Shown here: positions 5,138-11,451 of the stretch, piece by piece | Position numbering within the stretch: position 1 is the stretch's first letter | How the letters are laid out: each line of letters opens with the position of its first letter | From: Roseibacillus sp. | GTDB lineage: Bacteria; Verrucomicrobiota; Verrucomicrobiia; Verrucomicrobiales; Akkermansiaceae | Direction: 5' to 3' | Assembly (NCBI GenBank): GCA_002686085.1 | Contig: NZAC01000013.1 | Coordinates: forward strand, 1-44,029 | Length of the DNA: 44,029 nt | Translations under genes and position numbers: made by a program | Notes under the pieces: generated by a model | The model's database searches: none | What the model was told of the DNA's origin: nothing | What the model saw: only the letters and a program-made list of their open reading frames with translations

Positions 5138-6172
5138 TCAGCCCTTCTTCAAGCGGTCTACCTCATCGCGCAAGACCTTCAAAGTTCGGCGCATTTCCCT
5201 GAGCTTGGTGAGGTCACGCCACTGACGGACCTCTTCCTTAAATGGCTTTGCTGGGGTTCCCATGTAAACGCCGGGGTCGTCAATACTCTGCATAGCCCCA
5301 GACTTTCCTCCTAACTGCACTCCATCTGCAATTTCAATATGGCCGTTGATACCAACCTGGGCAGCAAGAGTAACGTTTTCTCCAAGCTTCGAGCTACCCG
5401 CCACACCTGAGAGCGCAACAATTATACAATTTTTGCCAATTTCGACATTATGCCCAACTTGGACTAGATTATCAATTTTAGTCCCCTCACCAACCACCGT
5501 TCGACCAAAGCGAGCTCTGTCGACACATGCGTTAGCACCGACTTCTACATCGCTCTCCAAAACAACGATTCCGAGCTGAGGCACCTTGTGGTGTCTGCCG
5601 TTGACAAACTCATATCCGAAACCGTCAGACCCTATTACTGCTCCCGGTTGCAGGATCACGCGATCTCCCACAACGCACCCTTCCCGCACGCTGACATTAT
5701 GATGAATGATACAGTCCTCGCCTATCACGACGTCTCGGCCAATCACGGCCCCGGAGCGAATTTCTGAACCCCGCCCAATGGTGGCTCCATCTTCGATGAC
5801 AGCTCCAGCGTGCACCGCAGCTCCAGAACTTACCTCTGCGCACTCCGAGACGTGAGCTCCCTTTCGAACTCCTGGCGCAAATCCCCGGTTACGCTCCTCA
5901 ACTTTTTCCGAAAGGGCAGCAAGAGCGTGAGAGGGATTGTCAACTTGAATGAGGGCCACCCCGGCCGGACCTGACCGAATGTCCGGCGTTACCAGCACCG
6001 CTCCTGCCCGAGTTGTGTCAAACTGGGATCTATACTTCGGATTGGAAAAAAAGCTTAGGTCATGCTCCTCCGCTTCGTTGAGGGTCCGCACTCCGCTCAG
6101 GACCCGATCCTGTTGCCCCGCAACGAGTGTCCCTCCGACCAGCTCGACCACTTCCGCGATCCGAAATTCCAC
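5138..6172 (-). CDS. lpxD: UDP-3-O-(3-hydroxyacyl)glucosamine N-acyltransferase
   Basis: Third step of lipid A synthesis: transfers a hydroxyacyl chain from acyl carrier protein to the 2-amine of UDP-3-O-acylglucosamine, at the cytoplasmic face of the inner membrane. The 344-residue length fits. An N-terminal uridine-binding domain (about residues 1-100) is followed by a long left-handed parallel beta-helix of hexapeptide repeats (about 100-300). The repeat region carries [19 protein letters not shown] and QVGHNVEIG, the last with the expected catalytic histidine. A charged helical tail ends the protein. It lies about 40 bp downstream of two Skp/OmpH genes, the order seen in bamA-skp-lpxD loci, though bamA is absent here. 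Confidence 0.95.
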
Positions 6173-6212: not shown

Positions 6213-6812
6213 CTATTCTCCACTCGCAGGAGGCGCAGCTGGTGCATCCTTGTTCAGAAGCACAAGCAGACCGGCGGTGATGTCCGTGGCGTCCTTGGTG
6301 TAAAGCAGGAAGGGAACCTGCGAAGTACTCATGCCAGATTTATCGAACACATAATCGTAATCATCAGCCTTGGCGCGGTCCTCCACGAGCTTCTGTATTT
6401 CCTCAAGGATTCCCCGCATCTTTTGAACCATCTTTTCGTTCAGCGCGGTGTTTCGCCGCTGAAGGAATTCACGGCGCTCACGGTCAAGGGCAACACCCTC
6501 CTGAGTTTTCATCTGGAACCCCTTGAAAAGCTCCTGCTTTCTCTTGTCGCTCAGGGAAGGGTCGTCCAGCTGCTTACGAAGGCCTTGCAACTCATCTTCG
6601 AGCGCACGAATAGTTTCGAGACGCTCGTTGTTATTCTGCTGAATCTTCGCCCGCTCAACATTGACCTCCTTCTGGGCTGCGTTAGTACGATGATACTGCT
6701 TGAAAAGCGTCTGCATATCTACCGTGGCTATCTTCAGCTTATCCTGCGCGGTAGCGGACAAGGAGAAGAGCAGAAGAGTAATTGCGGCAGGAAGGAGTTG
6801 GCTAAAATTCAT
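6213..6812 (-). CDS. OmpH/Skp family periplasmic chaperone, copy 1
   Basis: Predicted periplasmic holdase for unfolded outer-membrane proteins. ATG at 6812 gives a 199-residue product with a clean signal peptide (MNFSQLLPAAITLLLFSLSA-TAQ). A short beta strand IATVDMQTLF comes next, then a long charged helical hairpin (about residues 45-150) and a closing beta segment with SQVPFLLY and DATDIT, the Skp/OmpH architecture. The frame continues upstream to a TTG at 6866, but that adds residues in front of the signal peptide and is unlikely. It lies between a second OmpH paralogue and lpxD, probably on one transcript. The sequence is glutamine- and charge-rich as expected for the tentacle helices. 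Confidence 0.87.
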   Translation of the reverse strand: MNFSQLLPAAITLLLFSLSATAQDKLKIATVDMQTLFKQYHRTNAAQKEVNVERAKIQQNNNERLETIRALEDELQGLRKQLDDPSLSDKRKQELFKGFQMKTQEGVALDRERREFLQRRNTALNEKMVQKMRGILEEIQKLVEDRAKADDYDYVFDKSGMSTSQVPFLLYTKDATDITAGLLVLLNKDAPAAPPASGE

Positions 6813-6877
6813 GTGCTTGGCGTTTCGGAGTCCCGGTAGTCTGGAGAAAAAACCTCGAGCCGTCAAACCCCAAGCCC

Positions 6878-7555
6878 TTACCTCTCGGCTCCCCGCGAAG
6901 CTGATTCTGCAAGTTTCTTTATGATTCTCGGTGTGATGTCATGGGCGTCCCTGGCGAAAAGCAGAAATGGCACCTGTGAGCTACCAGTTCCGTCAACGTC
7001 AAAGACAAGATCAAAGCCCATACGCTCAGCTTCTAACCTGACGAGACCACGAATCTCCTCCAGAAGAATCTCCATTCGCGCCACCATTCGCCGATTTATA
7101 TCAGCATGGCGGGCCTTCAAAGCTACGTCTCTTTGCCTCTTCCACCGCTCTCGCTCATGAAATCGAACCCCTTTCTCTCTCTCCAAGTCTGGACGCCGGA
7201 CATCTGACTTATTCAATCCCTGAAGTGAAGACTCCAGTTCCCGAAGAACCTGATCCATCGCCCGCAGCTTAAGCGCATGCTGATTCTGCTCTTTCTGAAC
7301 CCGCGCCCTCTCAATATTAATTTCCCCTTCAGCGTGCGCAACCTTGTGGTAGGAGCGAAAAATCTCCTGAATATTGACAGTAGCGGTACGCATCTTTTTC
7401 TCCTCCCCGATCACCGCTACTTTCTGACCAAGTCCCAATCCAGCAGAGTTCTCCGCATCCTCCACGGTCACACCTTCCCCATACGCCTCAGACCCGAGCG
7501 CCCATGCGATCCCACAAAAAAGCATCCCTAGAATTCTTGAATTCAAAGCTACCAC
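6878..7555 (-). CDS. OmpH/Skp family periplasmic chaperone, copy 2
   Basis: A paralogue of the downstream gene. It starts with GTG at 7555, supported by a strong GAGGAG nine bases upstream. The 225-residue product has a signal peptide (about residues 1-27). A linker of about 25 residues absent from copy 1 follows, then RTATVNIQEIFRSYHK, a coiled-coil hairpin rich in Glu/Arg/Gln, and the end DVDGTGSSQVPFLLFARDA-HDIT. That last stretch is nearly shared with copy 1 and marks the pair as duplicates. It is the first gene of the minus-strand run leading to lpxD and is divergent from panC across 68 bp. A distinct client range is possible but not shown. Confidence 0.82.
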   Translation of the reverse strand: MVALNSRILGMLFCGIAWALGSEAYGEGVTVEDAENSAGLGLGQKVAVIGEEKKMRTATVNIQEIFRSYHKVAHAEGEINIERARVQKEQNQHALKLRAMDQVLRELESSLQGLNKSDVRRPDLEREKGVRFHERERWKRQRDVALKARHADINRRMVARMEILLEEIRGLVRLEAERMGFDLVFDVDGTGSSQVPFLLFARDAHDITPRIIKKLAESASRGAER

Positions 7556-7623: not shown

Positions 7624-8460
7624 ATGATTCAGTTTTCTTCACTCGACGGCCGCCCACTGGATCAGCCCTCCCCGTCGGTTCTCGTCCCCACAATGGGCGC
7701 TCTCCATGAGGGACACGCCGCTCTGATCAGAAGAGGGAGAGAGATTGCGGGACACGAGGGCAAAGTCACGGTTTCGATTTTTCTAAATCCTCTTCAATTT
7801 AATTCTTCATCGGATCTGGCAACCTACCCTCGAACCCTCGAAGCAGACCTCCTGCTCTGCCGCAGTCTTGGTGTCGACGCAGTCTACACCCCTTCTCCTG
7901 AGGAATTCTACGCCGCCGATCACTCAATCTCGATAATCGAAAACTCTCTCTCCCGCTCCTTGTGCGGGAGCACCCGCCCCGGTCATTTTGAAGGGGTCTG
8001 CACGGTTGTCCTGAAACTCCTCAACACCCTGCAGCCTTCTGACGCTATCTTCGGCAAGAAAGACTACCAGCAGCTTGCGATCATCAAGCGTCTCGTCCGT
8101 GATCTTGGTGTTCCCGTGCGGATCCATGGTGTTGACACTGTGAGGGAACCGGATGGCCTTGCCCTCTCATCGAGGAATATCATGCTGAAACCGGAGCACC
8201 GTAAGGATGCCTCACGTATTCATAGGGCTCTTCTTTGTGCACGGGATATCAGGGAAACAGGAGAGCAACGACCAGAAGTATACCTCAAGATCGCACGCAA
8301 GCATCTTGTTGAGAGCGCTCCACCCGAAATGGAAATTGAATATCTTGAGATCATCGATCGCGAAACGCTTGTTCCACTGGCAAAAGTCGCCAGGCCTGCC
8401 CTCCTTGCTACCGCCGCAACCTACGATGCGGTCCGCTTAATTGACAACATTGAGATCTAG
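7624..8460 (+). CDS. panC: Pantothenate synthetase (pantoate--beta-alanine ligase)
   Basis: Joins pantoate and beta-alanine with ATP to make pantothenate, the precursor of coenzyme A, in the cytoplasm. The 278-residue length is normal. PTMGALHEGH contains the HxGH nucleotide-binding signature. FLNPLQFN lies in the pantoate/ATP site, KDYQQLAIIKRLVRDL follows, and LSSRN is the KMSKS-like loop. ATG at 7624 follows a weak AGG. It converges with the NRAMP-like gene, with 24 bp between stops. No panB or panD is nearby, so the pathway is dispersed. Confidence 0.96.
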   Translation: MIQFSSLDGRPLDQPSPSVLVPTMGALHEGHAALIRRGREIAGHEGKVTVSIFLNPLQFNSSSDLATYPRTLEADLLLCRSLGVDAVYTPSPEEFYAADHSISIIENSLSRSLCGSTRPGHFEGVCTVVLKLLNTLQPSDAIFGKKDYQQLAIIKRLVRDLGVPVRIHGVDTVREPDGLALSSRNIMLKPEHRKDASRIHRALLCARDIRETGEQRPEVYLKIARKHLVESAPPEMEIEYLEIIDRETLVPLAKVARPALLATAATYDAVRLIDNIEI

Positions 8461-8484: not shown

Positions 8485-9723
8485 CTAAAACCAGGCTGCT
8501 ACTTTCCGGGCAGCAAGCAGCACCGCGAAGAGGACACCTGCGCCCGCCACAACCTTTAGGATTCCCGGCACTCTTCGCTGCCCAGTGAGCTCAGGCCTCG
8601 TCGCTAGATAAAGCATTGCGAGACCGAGTGCTGGAATTCCAAAAACCGTCAGAGCCTGAGCCCCCAGCATGAGCGAATCACGACTTTCCTTCCAGATAAG
8701 CCCAAAAATCGCAACTGCCATTCCCACTGTAAGTGCCAGGGCCGTAAAATGACGGGCCCACCGCCCCTGCATGCTGGCTCCTTTCCCAAGGCTATCAGAG
8801 AGGACCGTTCCTCCTATGGCTGCATTCACCATGAAAGAGCTCATCGCTCCTGCCATGAAGCCTCCACAGAACACATACTTTGAGCCGGAACCTAACAACG
8901 GCTCCAACTGGCTGGAGAGGTCCCCAATCTGGATGCTCTCAGGGACACCCGGGTTCCGGTGAAAAATCAGCAGAGAGGTAATCATGATCACCGCCGAAAC
9001 TCCACCGAGTACCGCGACTCCGATTCCAGAATCAAACGTTCCCTGCCGCAGGTCCTCCATCTTCCACCCTTTTTCTCTAACCAGATAGCTCTGAAAAAAG
9101 GCGCCCCCTATCGAAAAGGTCGTTCCAACAAGCGCAACTACTGGGAGCCAATCGCGCTTCTCCGCGATGGAGGCATTCCGCTCCGGGGCGTCACTGAACA
9201 TAGCGGCAAGAAGATTAACAGCAAAGGCTCCGATCATCAAAAGAACCAGAATCTTCATCGCTCTCTCCACAGCGGAATAGAGCGAACGCATCAGATACAG
9301 ACAGGATATGATCCCGACATTTGCTATCAAGAGAATGAGGATCTGCAGCATTACCCATCCCTGCGGTAGACCTCCCTCCTCATCTTCAAAAAGAGGCTCC
9401 AAGCCAACACCTAGCGCAAGGTTATTACTTGATTGATACAGGGCAACTATCCCGAAGAGGACGATCCCAACTCCTGCGGCTGTTTTACACCCTAAACGAT
9501 CCGATATCTCCTCACAAATACTTCCCTTGTAAATCACTCCAAGGCGCGCGGAGAGCGCAACCATTCCAACCATCAGAACAACAGCAAGAGCCAGAAATGG
9601 TAAACCCATCCACCCCCACTCAGCGCCTACTCGCGAGCTCGCAAGAATACTTCCAGGTCCAAGCACAACTGCTGCCACGATAATGGCTGGACCAATAGAT
9701 TTTACTCTTTCGCGAATTTTCAT
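8485..9723 (-). CDS. Divergent NRAMP (SLC11)-fold membrane transporter
   Basis: A 412-residue polytopic inner-membrane protein with about 11 hydrophobic helices, related to Mn/Fe transporters of the NRAMP family. The start SIGPAIIVAAVVLGPGS-ILASS aligns with the TM1 region that normally reads DPGN; here it is GPGS at residues 22-25. The TM6 region that normally carries MPH reads TTFSIGGAFFQSYLVR, with SIGG at 204-207. Thus the aspartate, asparagine and methionine that bind metal in characterised members are all replaced. Fold membership is supported by the TM1/TM6 flanks; substrate is unknown and may not be a transition metal. It follows nagA by 85 bp in the same orientation. Confidence 0.75.
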   Translation of the reverse strand: MKIRERVKSIGPAIIVAAVVLGPGSILASSRVGAEWGWMGLPFLALAVVLMVGMVALSARLGVIYKGSICEEISDRLGCKTAAGVGIVLFGIVALYQSSNNLALGVGLEPLFEDEEGGLPQGWVMLQILILLIANVGIISCLYLMRSLYSAVERAMKILVLLMIGAFAVNLLAAMFSDAPERNASIAEKRDWLPVVALVGTTFSIGGAFFQSYLVREKGWKMEDLRQGTFDSGIGVAVLGGVSAVIMITSLLIFHRNPGVPESIQIGDLSSQLEPLLGSGSKYVFCGGFMAGAMSSFMVNAAIGGTVLSDSLGKGASMQGRWARHFTALALTVGMAVAIFGLIWKESRDSLMLGAQALTVFGIPALGLAMLYLATRPELTGQRRVPGILKVVAGAGVLFAVLLAARKVAAWF

Positions 9724-9808: not shown

Positions 9809-10714
9809 TCAGAGCCCAATCGCCCTGCGAGGCCTCTCATAGCACAATCCTGCAACCTCATCGTCGTTAAAACCGAGTTCCCGCAGGACTCTGTCCACTT
9901 TTAGCATTGTTGCAGTCGATCCCACGAAATGAGCACCATCCGGAGATCGCGCAACCTCATCCGCTCCGACTTTAATCTCCCGGGCCCCAAGGGTGTAGCC
10001 GCCCGGCCCACAGCGTGCCGCAGAAATCGCATCGGTCACCATGAGACACCGCTCCAGCGTGGCGGCCCTGAGATAGTTTCTCAGAGCGAAACTGGGAACA
10101 TGAATTCCATCACCAATAAAGCAAACCCACAGACTCTCAGAGAGGCTAAGCACCCGTTCCACTATATTTTGATGCCTTGGCAGATTCTGAGGGCAGCCGT
10201 TTCCCAGATGTGTGAACATCGTCAGGCCAGCGTCGATCGCCGCTCGAAGCTGATCCAGAGAAGGGTCACAATGTCCCGCTGACACGACCACTCCCTGCTC
10301 CGCCAGATATCGAGTGGTGGCTAATCCCATGTCACATTCAGGAGCAAGCGTCACAACCCTCGCAAGACCATCTGCAGCCTCCATCAGATCCTTCATGACA
10401 TTTACAGAAGCAGACCGCGCCTGATCTCGAGGATGAGCCCCAATAAAGCCATCTGCAGGATTCAGGAAAGGGCCCTCAATATGAATTCCAACCACCACCC
10501 TTCGAACGGTCTCATCCTCCTCCCGCGCTCGAACGATTCTCCGTATTTTGGCCTTCATAGCCTCAACCGAATCCGTAATCACAGTAGCGAGAATTCCCTC
10601 GGTCCCATCTTCCTCCAGTGCGGAGCAGGCCTGCTTCGCCTCCTCTGTCGTCAGAGCAATGGAATTGAAATCAACTCCGGCATATCCGTTCACCTGAAGG
10701 TCAAAATATCTCAT
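9809..10714 (-). CDS. nagA: N-acetylglucosamine-6-phosphate deacetylase (minimal form)
   Basis: Hydrolyses GlcNAc-6-phosphate to GlcN-6-phosphate and acetate, feeding the deaminase encoded just upstream. The metal and catalytic residues of the family are present: HIEGPF (metal Glu), SAGHCD and FTHLGNG (metal His), DGIHVP (substrate His) and MVTDAISAA (catalytic Asp). The start DLQVNGYAG has the QxN form of the E. coli enzyme. At 301 residues it is much shorter than the ~380 of E. coli. It begins at the first barrel strand and stops right after RRAIGL, so the small beta-sandwich domain made by both termini is missing. It overlaps nagB by 4 bp (ATGA). Confidence 0.88.
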   Translation of the reverse strand: MRYFDLQVNGYAGVDFNSIALTTEEAKQACSALEEDGTEGILATVITDSVEAMKAKIRRIVRAREEDETVRRVVVGIHIEGPFLNPADGFIGAHPRDQARSASVNVMKDLMEAADGLARVVTLAPECDMGLATTRYLAEQGVVVSAGHCDPSLDQLRAAIDAGLTMFTHLGNGCPQNLPRHQNIVERVLSLSESLWVCFIGDGIHVPSFALRNYLRAATLERCLMVTDAISAARCGPGGYTLGAREIKVGADEVARSPDGAHFVGSTATMLKVDRVLRELGFNDDEVAGLCYERPRRAIGL

Positions 10715-11451
10715 CTCGTGAGCAGGCTTGCTGACGGATCATCAAGAAAAAGCCTGCAGTCGGAGTGCTGCTGCAGGATCGTAGCAGGAATTTCAGGACT
10801 CACCTCCTCCTCGACACTACTCCGCACTGCGGGTGCCTTTCGAGCATCGGGAACCGTGCAGATAATTCTCTCCGCCTTCAGGATCTGTCTTACCGACATC
10901 GAAATTGCATGTTCGGGCACTGATGTCAGTTCTGGAAACCACCCCTCTCCTACCTGCTGCTGCCGACACTCTTCATCAAGCTTCACAATAATGTAAGGTG
11001 CTTTGGTATCGAAGTCTGCCGGTGGATCATTGAAGGCAATATGGCCATTTTCACCAATCCCGATAAATGCAACCACAGGATCGCTTCTCTCAATCATCAC
11101 TCCCAGTCTTGCGCATTCCAATCCGGGCTCGGCGCAGCCATTGATAGCGTGAAAGCCTTTCAGCGCGCAGGGCAATTTGTCGACAAACCTGTCTCGGAGA
11201 AATCTGCTGAAGGAGGCCGGATGCTCCCCTTCGAGACCGATATATTCATCTAAATGAAACAGGACGATTCTGTCCCATTCAATGCCTGTCTCCCTCAGAA
11301 GAGCATCAATAACCTCAAACTGGGAAGCCGCAGAGGCCATCACAATCGAAACTTCCTCCCTAGTCGCCAGAGCTTCACGAATTTTATCAGCTCCAGCCGC
11401 CGCCGCAGCGGAACCGAGCTTTGCCTTGGTTCGGAAAATACTGAGATTCAT
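10711..11451 (-). CDS. nagB: Glucosamine-6-phosphate deaminase family protein
   Basis: Predicted to convert GlcN-6-phosphate into fructose-6-phosphate and ammonia, completing amino-sugar entry to glycolysis. The 246-residue protein has FHLDEYIGL (catalytic Asp region) and GIGENGHIAFNDP with the ring-opening histidine. The phosphate-binding loop is atypical: where E. coli has LPTGGTP this protein has MASAASQFEV. FND also replaces FNE. Such variants exist in the wider NagB/6-phosphogluconolactonase-like superfamily. A related sugar-phosphate isomerase role is therefore possible, but the 4-bp overlap with nagA makes the deaminase role likely. It is divergent from nadB across 100 bp. Confidence 0.85.
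   Translation of the reverse strand: MNLSIFRTKAKLGSAAAAAGADKIREALATREEVSIVMASAASQFEVIDALLRETGIEWDRIVLFHLDEYIGLEGEHPASFSRFLRDRFVDKLPCALKGFHAINGCAEPGLECARLGVMIERSDPVVAFIGIGENGHIAFNDPPADFDTKAPYIIVKLDEECRQQQVGEGWFPELTSVPEHAISMSVRQILKAERIICTVPDARKAPAVRSSVEEEVSPEIPATILQQHSDCRLFLDDPSASLLTR

Follow-up and report, generated by a model that had tools for sequence, protein, structure and literature searches.

A conserved Nramp-related carrier with an altered metal site, encoded next to nagA- and nagB-like genes in Roseibacillus sp., and its possible role in moving an organic solute

The stretch of DNA analysed here (the window; 44,029 nucleotides of contig NZAC01000013.1 from Roseibacillus sp.) encodes a membrane carrier related to Nramp, and directly upstream of it on the same strand lie genes resembling nagA and nagB, in agreement with the initial annotation, which had placed the carrier behind nagBA. 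The genes and the residues considered in this study are as follows.

8485-9723, minus strand: gene for the Nramp-related carrier, 412 aa, of the GPGS/TxxS type (intact ORF; PF01566; model with pLDDT 85.6 and pTM 0.85)
9649-9660, minus strand: GPGS, residues 22-25, at the DPGN position of TM1 (translation; alignments; helix break of the model at 21-22)
9421-9435, minus strand: QSSNN, residues 97-101, in TM3, with N100 where canonical Nramps and EleNRMT have Glu (Q97, N100 and N101 invariant in 78/78 aligned rows)
9121-9123, minus strand: T201 in TM6, corresponding to A227 of DraNramp and Thr224 of EleNRMT (invariant in 78/78 rows; alignment)
9103-9114, minus strand: SIGG, residues 204-207, at the MPHN position of TM6 (translation; alignments; helix break of the model at 203-204)
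8656-8658, minus strand: Q356 in TM10, a retained ligand-type residue corresponding to Q378 of DraNramp (invariant in 78/78 rows; alignment)
9809-10714, minus strand: nagA-like gene, short form, 301 aa (TIGR00221 at 155 bits, below cut-off; the sole nagA-type match of the genome)
10711-11451, minus strand: nagB-like gene, 246 aa, overlapping nagA by 4 bases (PF01182 at 55.5 bits; TIGR00502 at 122.7 bits, below cut-off)

The NagA model aligned with the short nagA gene from its position 59 onward only, and no Pfam family matched this gene at 0.001. No terminator-like site was found between nagA and the carrier gene, the scan for promoters and terminators being at chance level. No metal riboswitch was detected in the window at the Rfam gathering score, at which only a tRNA matched. 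Within the cluster of nag and carrier genes, no kinase gene was recognised. On the other side of the carrier gene, its 3' neighbour (7624-8460, opposite strand) is panC-like by inspection, and a tandem pair of homologous genes (6213-6866 and 6878-7555), which by inspection resemble the periplasmic chaperone OmpH/Skp, is located beside an lpxD-like gene (5138-6172).

The carrier matches PF01566 at 127.4 bits, above the Pfam cut-off of 29.8, and scores 52.5 bits with the NCBIfam MntH model, far below its cut-off of 430. In the AlphaFold2 model calculated with 52 family sequences, helices span residues 3 to 411, nearly all of them in the membrane, and the breaks of TM1 (residues 21-22) and TM6 (residues 203-204) coincide with both motif sites. 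The best Foldseek matches of the model are DraNramp (3e-12) and EleNRMT (8e-12), with TM-scores of 0.78-0.80, for which VIA-align gave Z of 43.3 and 39.8, respectively. The next structural matches are AdiC, NKCC1 and BasC (Z of 28-33), all of which are amino-acid or ion carriers, and the YcsG model 9a52 matches at Z of 36.5. As modelled, then, the fold of the carrier is that of NRAMP, as had been supposed from the sequence. In the profile alignment, the closest solved protein by sequence is EleNRMT (1.3e-19). The dN/dS ratios of 0.07-0.15 against five close relatives indicate purifying selection; a pseudogene or a sequencing error was considered and rejected on the basis of these ratios, the intact ORF and the sharing of the residues with homologues.

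Translation of the intact 412-aa ORF reproduced the GPGS and SIGG motifs on which the initial annotation was based. In the profile alignment, “lGPGsi” of the carrier was placed on “MDPGNf” of DraNramp and “NDAGGi” of EleNRMT, and “gttfs” on “GATVM” and “GTTIA”, so that TTFSIGG in TM6 is set against ATVMPHV of DraNramp and TTIAPWM of EleNRMT. From DraNramp to the carrier, namely, D56 is replaced by G22, N59 by S25, A227 by T201, M230 by S204 and H232 by G206; the second His of TM6 is replaced by Q211, and the Glu of TM3 (E134) by N100. The Gln of TM10 (Q378 in DraNramp and Q379 in EleNRMT) is nonetheless kept as Q356, and T201 aligns with Thr224, which is described as a ligand in EleNRMT (PMC8806188). 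The claim that all side-chain ligands are replaced hence holds for TM1 and for the Met of TM6 but needs to be restricted, given the retained Gln and the Thr shared with EleNRMT. We also considered that the ligands might be shifted elsewhere in the protein by misalignment, and, to the extent that sequence and model permit, this was rejected because the positions in TM1 and TM6 are the same by profile alignment, by MAFFT and by the helix breaks of the predicted structure. The placing of residues of the carrier at the central cavity is by analogy with the homologues.

Homologues were collected by a scan with two patterns, one containing GPGS and the other SF..N..GG, from which the best 80 of 295 confirmed stretches were kept; after L066 and L067 were dropped for X residues, the alignment comprised 78 rows (the carrier and 77 homologues). 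Among these best-scoring stretches, GPG, T201, N100, N101 and Q356 are invariant in all of the 78 rows, and S25 and S204 are each found in 77. Since the scan was seeded on a pattern containing GPGS, this motif is partly selected for in the alignment. Among the named sequences, those closest to the carrier came from Roseibacillus and other Akkermansiaceae. A motif-free protein search, however, gave 27 matches below 1e-70 (the carrier included), all of which have GPGS and 26 of which have S204, with Val in the remaining one. The replacements at the motifs are more than chance or decay.

When 98 genomes of relatives were searched, the carrier was found in 27 and an orthologue of the short NagA (E at or below 1e-90) in 42, and both were present together in 25 of the 27 carrier genomes (25/2 versus 17/54; Fisher 4e-10 with kinship ignored). 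In 23 of the 27, nagA is located at most 0.8 kb from the carrier gene on the same strand; the gap is at most about 165 bp at 22 of these loci, and nagB intervenes at the other one. The window's own genus accounts for 14 of the 23 nagA-linked carriers, but the linkage is seen even in homologues with 38-48% identity (G080, G063 and G065). The carriers without nagA nearby are those of G074 and G072, where nagA is elsewhere, and of G043 and G051, which have a distant nagA only. In a broader set of 51 named loci (non-redundant at 85%), nagA is present within 5 kb on the same strand at 23, nagB at 20 and either of them at 25; measured to the start of the match, the gap between nagA and the carrier is -6 to 108 bp at 21 of the 23 nagA loci and 660 and 776 bp at the other two. 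The linkage of nagB, nagA and the carrier is thus operon-like.

Neither nagA nor nagB was found within 5 kb on the same strand at 26 of the 51 loci, some of which are on short contigs. Indeed, nag genes are present at none of the 12 loci from planctomycete-titled records (L076, L080, L081, L085, L088, L090, L115, L120, L123, L127, L137 and L139). A class-level profile search found the carrier at 1e-40 in three of 188 genomes including the window's own, and both of the other homologues (in G295 and G242) have no nag neighbours. Conservation of the nag linkage, which the initial annotation proposed to check, is evident among the relatives (nagA in 23/27) but does not extend to these nag-less loci. 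The carrier gene of G295 (L214:4714-7267) is flanked by folK-like and panB-like genes, and that of G242 is near a DHDPS-like gene (all named by inspection); the parallel between the neighbours in G295 and the panC-like gene of the window is possibly a coincidence. Where nag genes are absent, the partners are Gfo/Idh dehydrogenases, isomerases, sulfatase-labelled genes, BNR proteins and a DHDPS-family gene; any of nagA, nagB, Gfo/Idh and an IolE-like isomerase is found at 31 of the 51 non-redundant loci. At seven loci (L077, L092, L110, L111, L112, L124 and L126), the carrier gene and the genes for an ABC transporter of the PhnSTU type (for 2-aminoethylphosphonate or iron) point away from each other, the label of the transporter being taken from one scanned member for each of its three gene clusters. 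Near the carrier gene in L140, a record labelled Luteitalea sp., a gene for a RhaT-type sugar/proton symporter is encoded on the other strand (8718-9722).

Conversely, 17 genomes have the nagA orthologue but not the carrier, meaning that nagA does not need the carrier. ORF calling recovered nagA at 12 of these 17 loci (not in L142, L146, L148, L150 and L154). With a view to another transporter taking the place of the carrier beside nagA, proteins with at least five predicted membrane segments were found within four genes of nagA in L143, L149, L153 and L158, but they are of differing kinds and speak neither for nor against such a replacement.

As a control, other PF01566 genes of the phylum were surveyed, a match being found in 33 of 115 genomes. 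Motifs were read in 46 genes, a few of which were added from the searches of relatives, with seven weak matches (L199-L205) excluded. At the position of the TM1 Asp, canonical genes have DPGN and two NRMT-like genes of one genome also keep Asp, while the other types have Gly, as in GPGS, GGGS, GAGS, GSGE, GTGS, GPGT, GGSH and others. To judge from these sequences, loss of Asp is not unusual, and Gly generally occupies this position in the Nramp-related PF01566 genes that were read in the phylum; the rarity implied by the initial annotation does not stand, the more so as D56G is the most heavily weighted mutation in a family-wide sequence analysis (PMC13060092, preprint). In a quick tree of 74 rows with several long branches, the GPGS group forms one clade with a more distant GPGS sequence, S_L184 (SH-aLRT 100), apart from the canonical genes, and EleNRMT joins S_L179 and S_L180 (99); the phylogeny including NRMT that had been suggested for this protein accordingly places it away from EleNRMT.

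The neighbourhoods of PF01566 genes, most of them from this survey, were compared over about 5 kb on each side where the contig allows, and are also distinct. A MntR-type repressor gene is nearby in 7 of 19 canonical DPGN loci, in contrast to 0 of 24 other Gly-type loci and 0 of 79 GPGS loci (Fisher p of 8e-7, with kinship ignored and with control loci that were unthinned, several being from the same genus). The nag, Gfo or IolE labels are absent from all 19 canonical loci but appear at 9 of the 24 other Gly-type loci and at 31 of 51 GPGS loci; as the profiles were built from neighbours of the GPGS genes, the GPGS count is not independent, but the other two counts are. L184 (GPGS-like) and L179/L180 (NRMT-like) belong to neither of the two control sets. 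Pfam scans of up to three genes per side covered 111 canonical and 124 Gly-type neighbours, for which the top 25 families were tallied, so that other families may still match a couple of neighbours. Among the families listed, the canonical neighbours have Fe_dep_repr in 7 and alpha-amylase/CBM48 domains in 4, and the Gly-type neighbours have Gfo/Idh in 8, AP_endonuc_2 in 6, 3-keto-disaccharide hydrolase in 4, sulfatase in 4, UxaC in 3, SASA in 3 and histidine-kinase-type domains in 4, together with unrelated genes.

The window's genome itself has two further PF01566 genes. One of them, which encodes a protein of 576 aa with GGGS in TM1, is grouped at L061:3965-9459 with genes for a Gfo/Idh dehydrogenase and two AP_endonuc_2 (TIM-barrel) isomerases; the order of carrier, Gfo and IolE-like genes is also found in L190, L208 and L210, and in L209 with one extra gene between. 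Such GGGS groups of Verrucomicrobiota resemble the carrier in having Gly at the Asp position and sugar-metabolism neighbours but differ in forming a separate clade, in their size (about 530-610 aa), in GINMTF of TM6 and in having Gfo/Idh and isomerase partners instead of nagBA. Nramp-related genes with GTGS in TM1 are found in L181-L183; the proteins of L181 and L182 are about 790 aa, with sulfatase-labelled genes near both, and a ribokinase-type gene precedes the Nramp-related gene in L181.

Canonical NRAMP/Slc11 proteins (MntH, DraNramp and DMT1) share with the carrier PF01566, the fold (Z of 43.3), broken TM1 and TM6 and the Gln of TM10. The carrier nevertheless has GPGS in place of DPGN, lacks MPH, has an invariant Asn instead of the TM3 Glu, and shows TxxS followed by Gly and Gln instead of the canonical A/CxxM and His in TM6; in addition, MntR-type genes, which occur near canonical genes, are absent near the GPGS genes (0/79). 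Asp56 of DraNramp is reported to be strictly required for Mn import, with D56G as an example of no activity (PMC13060092), and the same preprint regards the aligned members as “likely metal transporters” while describing the specificity of most Nramp-related ones as unknown. The Mg2+ carrier EleNRMT is similar to the carrier in its sequence, its structure (Z of 39.8), its TM6 Thr and a small residue at the Met position. It retains, however, the TM1 Asp and the TM3 Glu, neither of which is in the carrier, and the NRMT signature of DxxG in TM1 and TxxA/T in TM6 (PMC8806188) compares with GxxS and TxxS here. Nramp-related proteins have been described as paraphyletic with diverse residues replacing both motifs by Ray et al. 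(PMC12873925), and Cellier has described an “orphan” outgroup and NRMT as relatives of Slc11 (PMC9606685 and PMC10606218).

Regarding organic solutes, PxpT, an NRAMP-family protein of C. glutamicum, is required for growth on 5-oxoproline, as confirmed by complementation (PMC13274462, 2026), which serves as a precedent. The evidence is genetic, and its authors leave metal transport by PxpT possible (PMC13274462); YcsG, the homologue of PxpT in B. subtilis, has moreover been described as a Mn2+ importer (PMC10448178, 2023), so that an organic solute for NRAMP-family proteins is contested. The carrier is likened to PxpT and YcsG as an NRAMP-family protein in a catabolic operon, namely by its context and by the match of its model to 9a52 (Z of 36.5), although their operon is pxpABC and that of the carrier is nagBA; catabolic neighbours are indeed found for the carrier (nagA in 23/27 and any of the four partner types at 31/51). 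A GGSH-type homologue had no match among PDB sequences. Our literature search, with most subscription journals outside its coverage, returned no paper on a nag-linked Nramp-related carrier (two papers that mention both Nramp and glucosamine-6-phosphate deaminase do so separately), and it is this nag context of the carrier that looks new.

We consider, with a probability of roughly 0.4, that the protein is a secondary carrier related to Nramp that does not bind a bare divalent metal; its substrate would be a small organic solute, uncharged or zwitterionic, and most likely GlcNAc, GlcN or a close derivative of such amino sugars. As the breaks of TM1 and TM6 offer neither an acidic nor a sulphur ligand, there would be little for a bare divalent metal to bind, and the loss of the metal-holding residues together with the amino-sugar operon makes a small organic nutrient likelier than a metal. 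The small residues G22, S25, S204, G206 and G207 would open a widened neutral site, in which T201, N100, Q356 and Q211 could bond a neutral polyol or an N-acetyl group; a sugar may thus be bound by side chains of Asn, Gln, Ser and Thr together with backbone groups of TM1 and TM6. Alternating access by rocking of TM1 and TM6 is a property of this fold, and the solute would cross by such a rocking-bundle movement. In the cytoplasm, the sugar would be phosphorylated by a kinase encoded elsewhere, for which the one ROK-family gene of the genome, located beside a SIS-domain gene, is a candidate, and would then be deacetylated by NagA and deaminated by NagB. The genome has two PF01182 genes, of which the copy outside the operon scores above the NagB cut-off, so that a route from GlcNAc through a kinase, NagA and NagB may be possible in terms of gene content. 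PTS_EIIC has no match in the genome, and SSF matches eight stretches in about six genes, which could include other sugar carriers. The suggestion of the initial annotation that the protein may carry a different solute thus gains partial support from the conserved nagA/nagB linkage and from the contrast between Gly-type and DPGN neighbourhoods.

Several observations count against an amino sugar, among them the 26 of 51 loci, the 12 of 12 planctomycete loci and both class-level homologues without nag genes, the 17 genomes with nagA but no carrier, the SSF stretches, the description of YcsG as a Mn2+ importer (PMC10448178), and the carbohydrate genes beside canonical Nramps. The carrier might move instead another organic solute with the same fold, such as another sugar, a sugar acid, an organic acid or an amino-acid derivative, in which case linkage to nag would be only one context among several. 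The contexts with IolE-like isomerase, Gfo/Idh, sulfatase-labelled, BNR-type and DHDPS-family genes, the RhaT-type gene (L140), the folK/panB-like neighbours (G295), the sister group of the L061 type with its Gfo/Idh and isomerases, and the growth of C. glutamicum on 5-oxoproline with PxpT (PMC13274462) all fit this reading; nagA is, however, the commonest of the five partner types tallied, nagA or nagB is present at 25 of 51 loci, and the nag link spans homologues down to 38% identity within the order, and we hence find a solute other than an amino sugar rather unlikely. Less likely still is an NRMT-like metal carrier, in which T201, Q356, Ser residues and backbone carbonyls would hold hydrated Mg2+ or another cation, possibly to supply the metal enzyme NagA. 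A hydrated cation would agree with the kept Gln and with the Thr of NRMT type, TxxS of TM6 resembles TxxA/T, and EleNRMT is the closest solved sequence (1.3e-19); but the TM1 Asp, which canonical Nramps and EleNRMT retain and whose mutation strongly compromises transport by EleNRMT (PMC8806188), is gone, as is the TM3 Glu, and the carrier is separated from EleNRMT in the quick tree with its long branches (clade at 100). No MntR-type gene near the GPGS genes and no riboswitch in the window at the Rfam gathering score also argue against this metal reading.

The initial annotation further raised a sensor, as in the NRAMP-like domain of EIN2; the protein would then be a membrane sensor or receptor that transports nothing. 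The loss of the ligand residues and the strict conservation of their replacements would suit such a role. In EIN2, however, the Nramp domain is fused to a cytosolic signalling domain, while the carrier, with 412 aa modelled nearly entirely as membrane helices, has no added soluble domain for output; a sensor thus finds no support and seems very improbable.

If the nag-linked group does carry amino sugars, many PF01566 genes whose names refer to divalent metals are probably wrongly named, and it would become testable how metal selectivity arose in NRAMP, by comparing a carrier that has a neutral site with its metal-binding relatives. The carrier is also a candidate amino-sugar importer for Verrucomicrobiota, in a genome with no match to PTS_EIIC. 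A wider proposal, which we put forward tentatively and regard as somewhat doubtful, is that all Gly-type Nramp-related proteins are organic-solute carriers (for amino sugars, other sugars or 5-oxoproline) and that metal transport is a derived property marked by the TM1 Asp. Were this the case, carriers of organic nutrients would be the ancestors of NRAMPs, and the nag-linked group would represent a new kind of importer for amino sugars.
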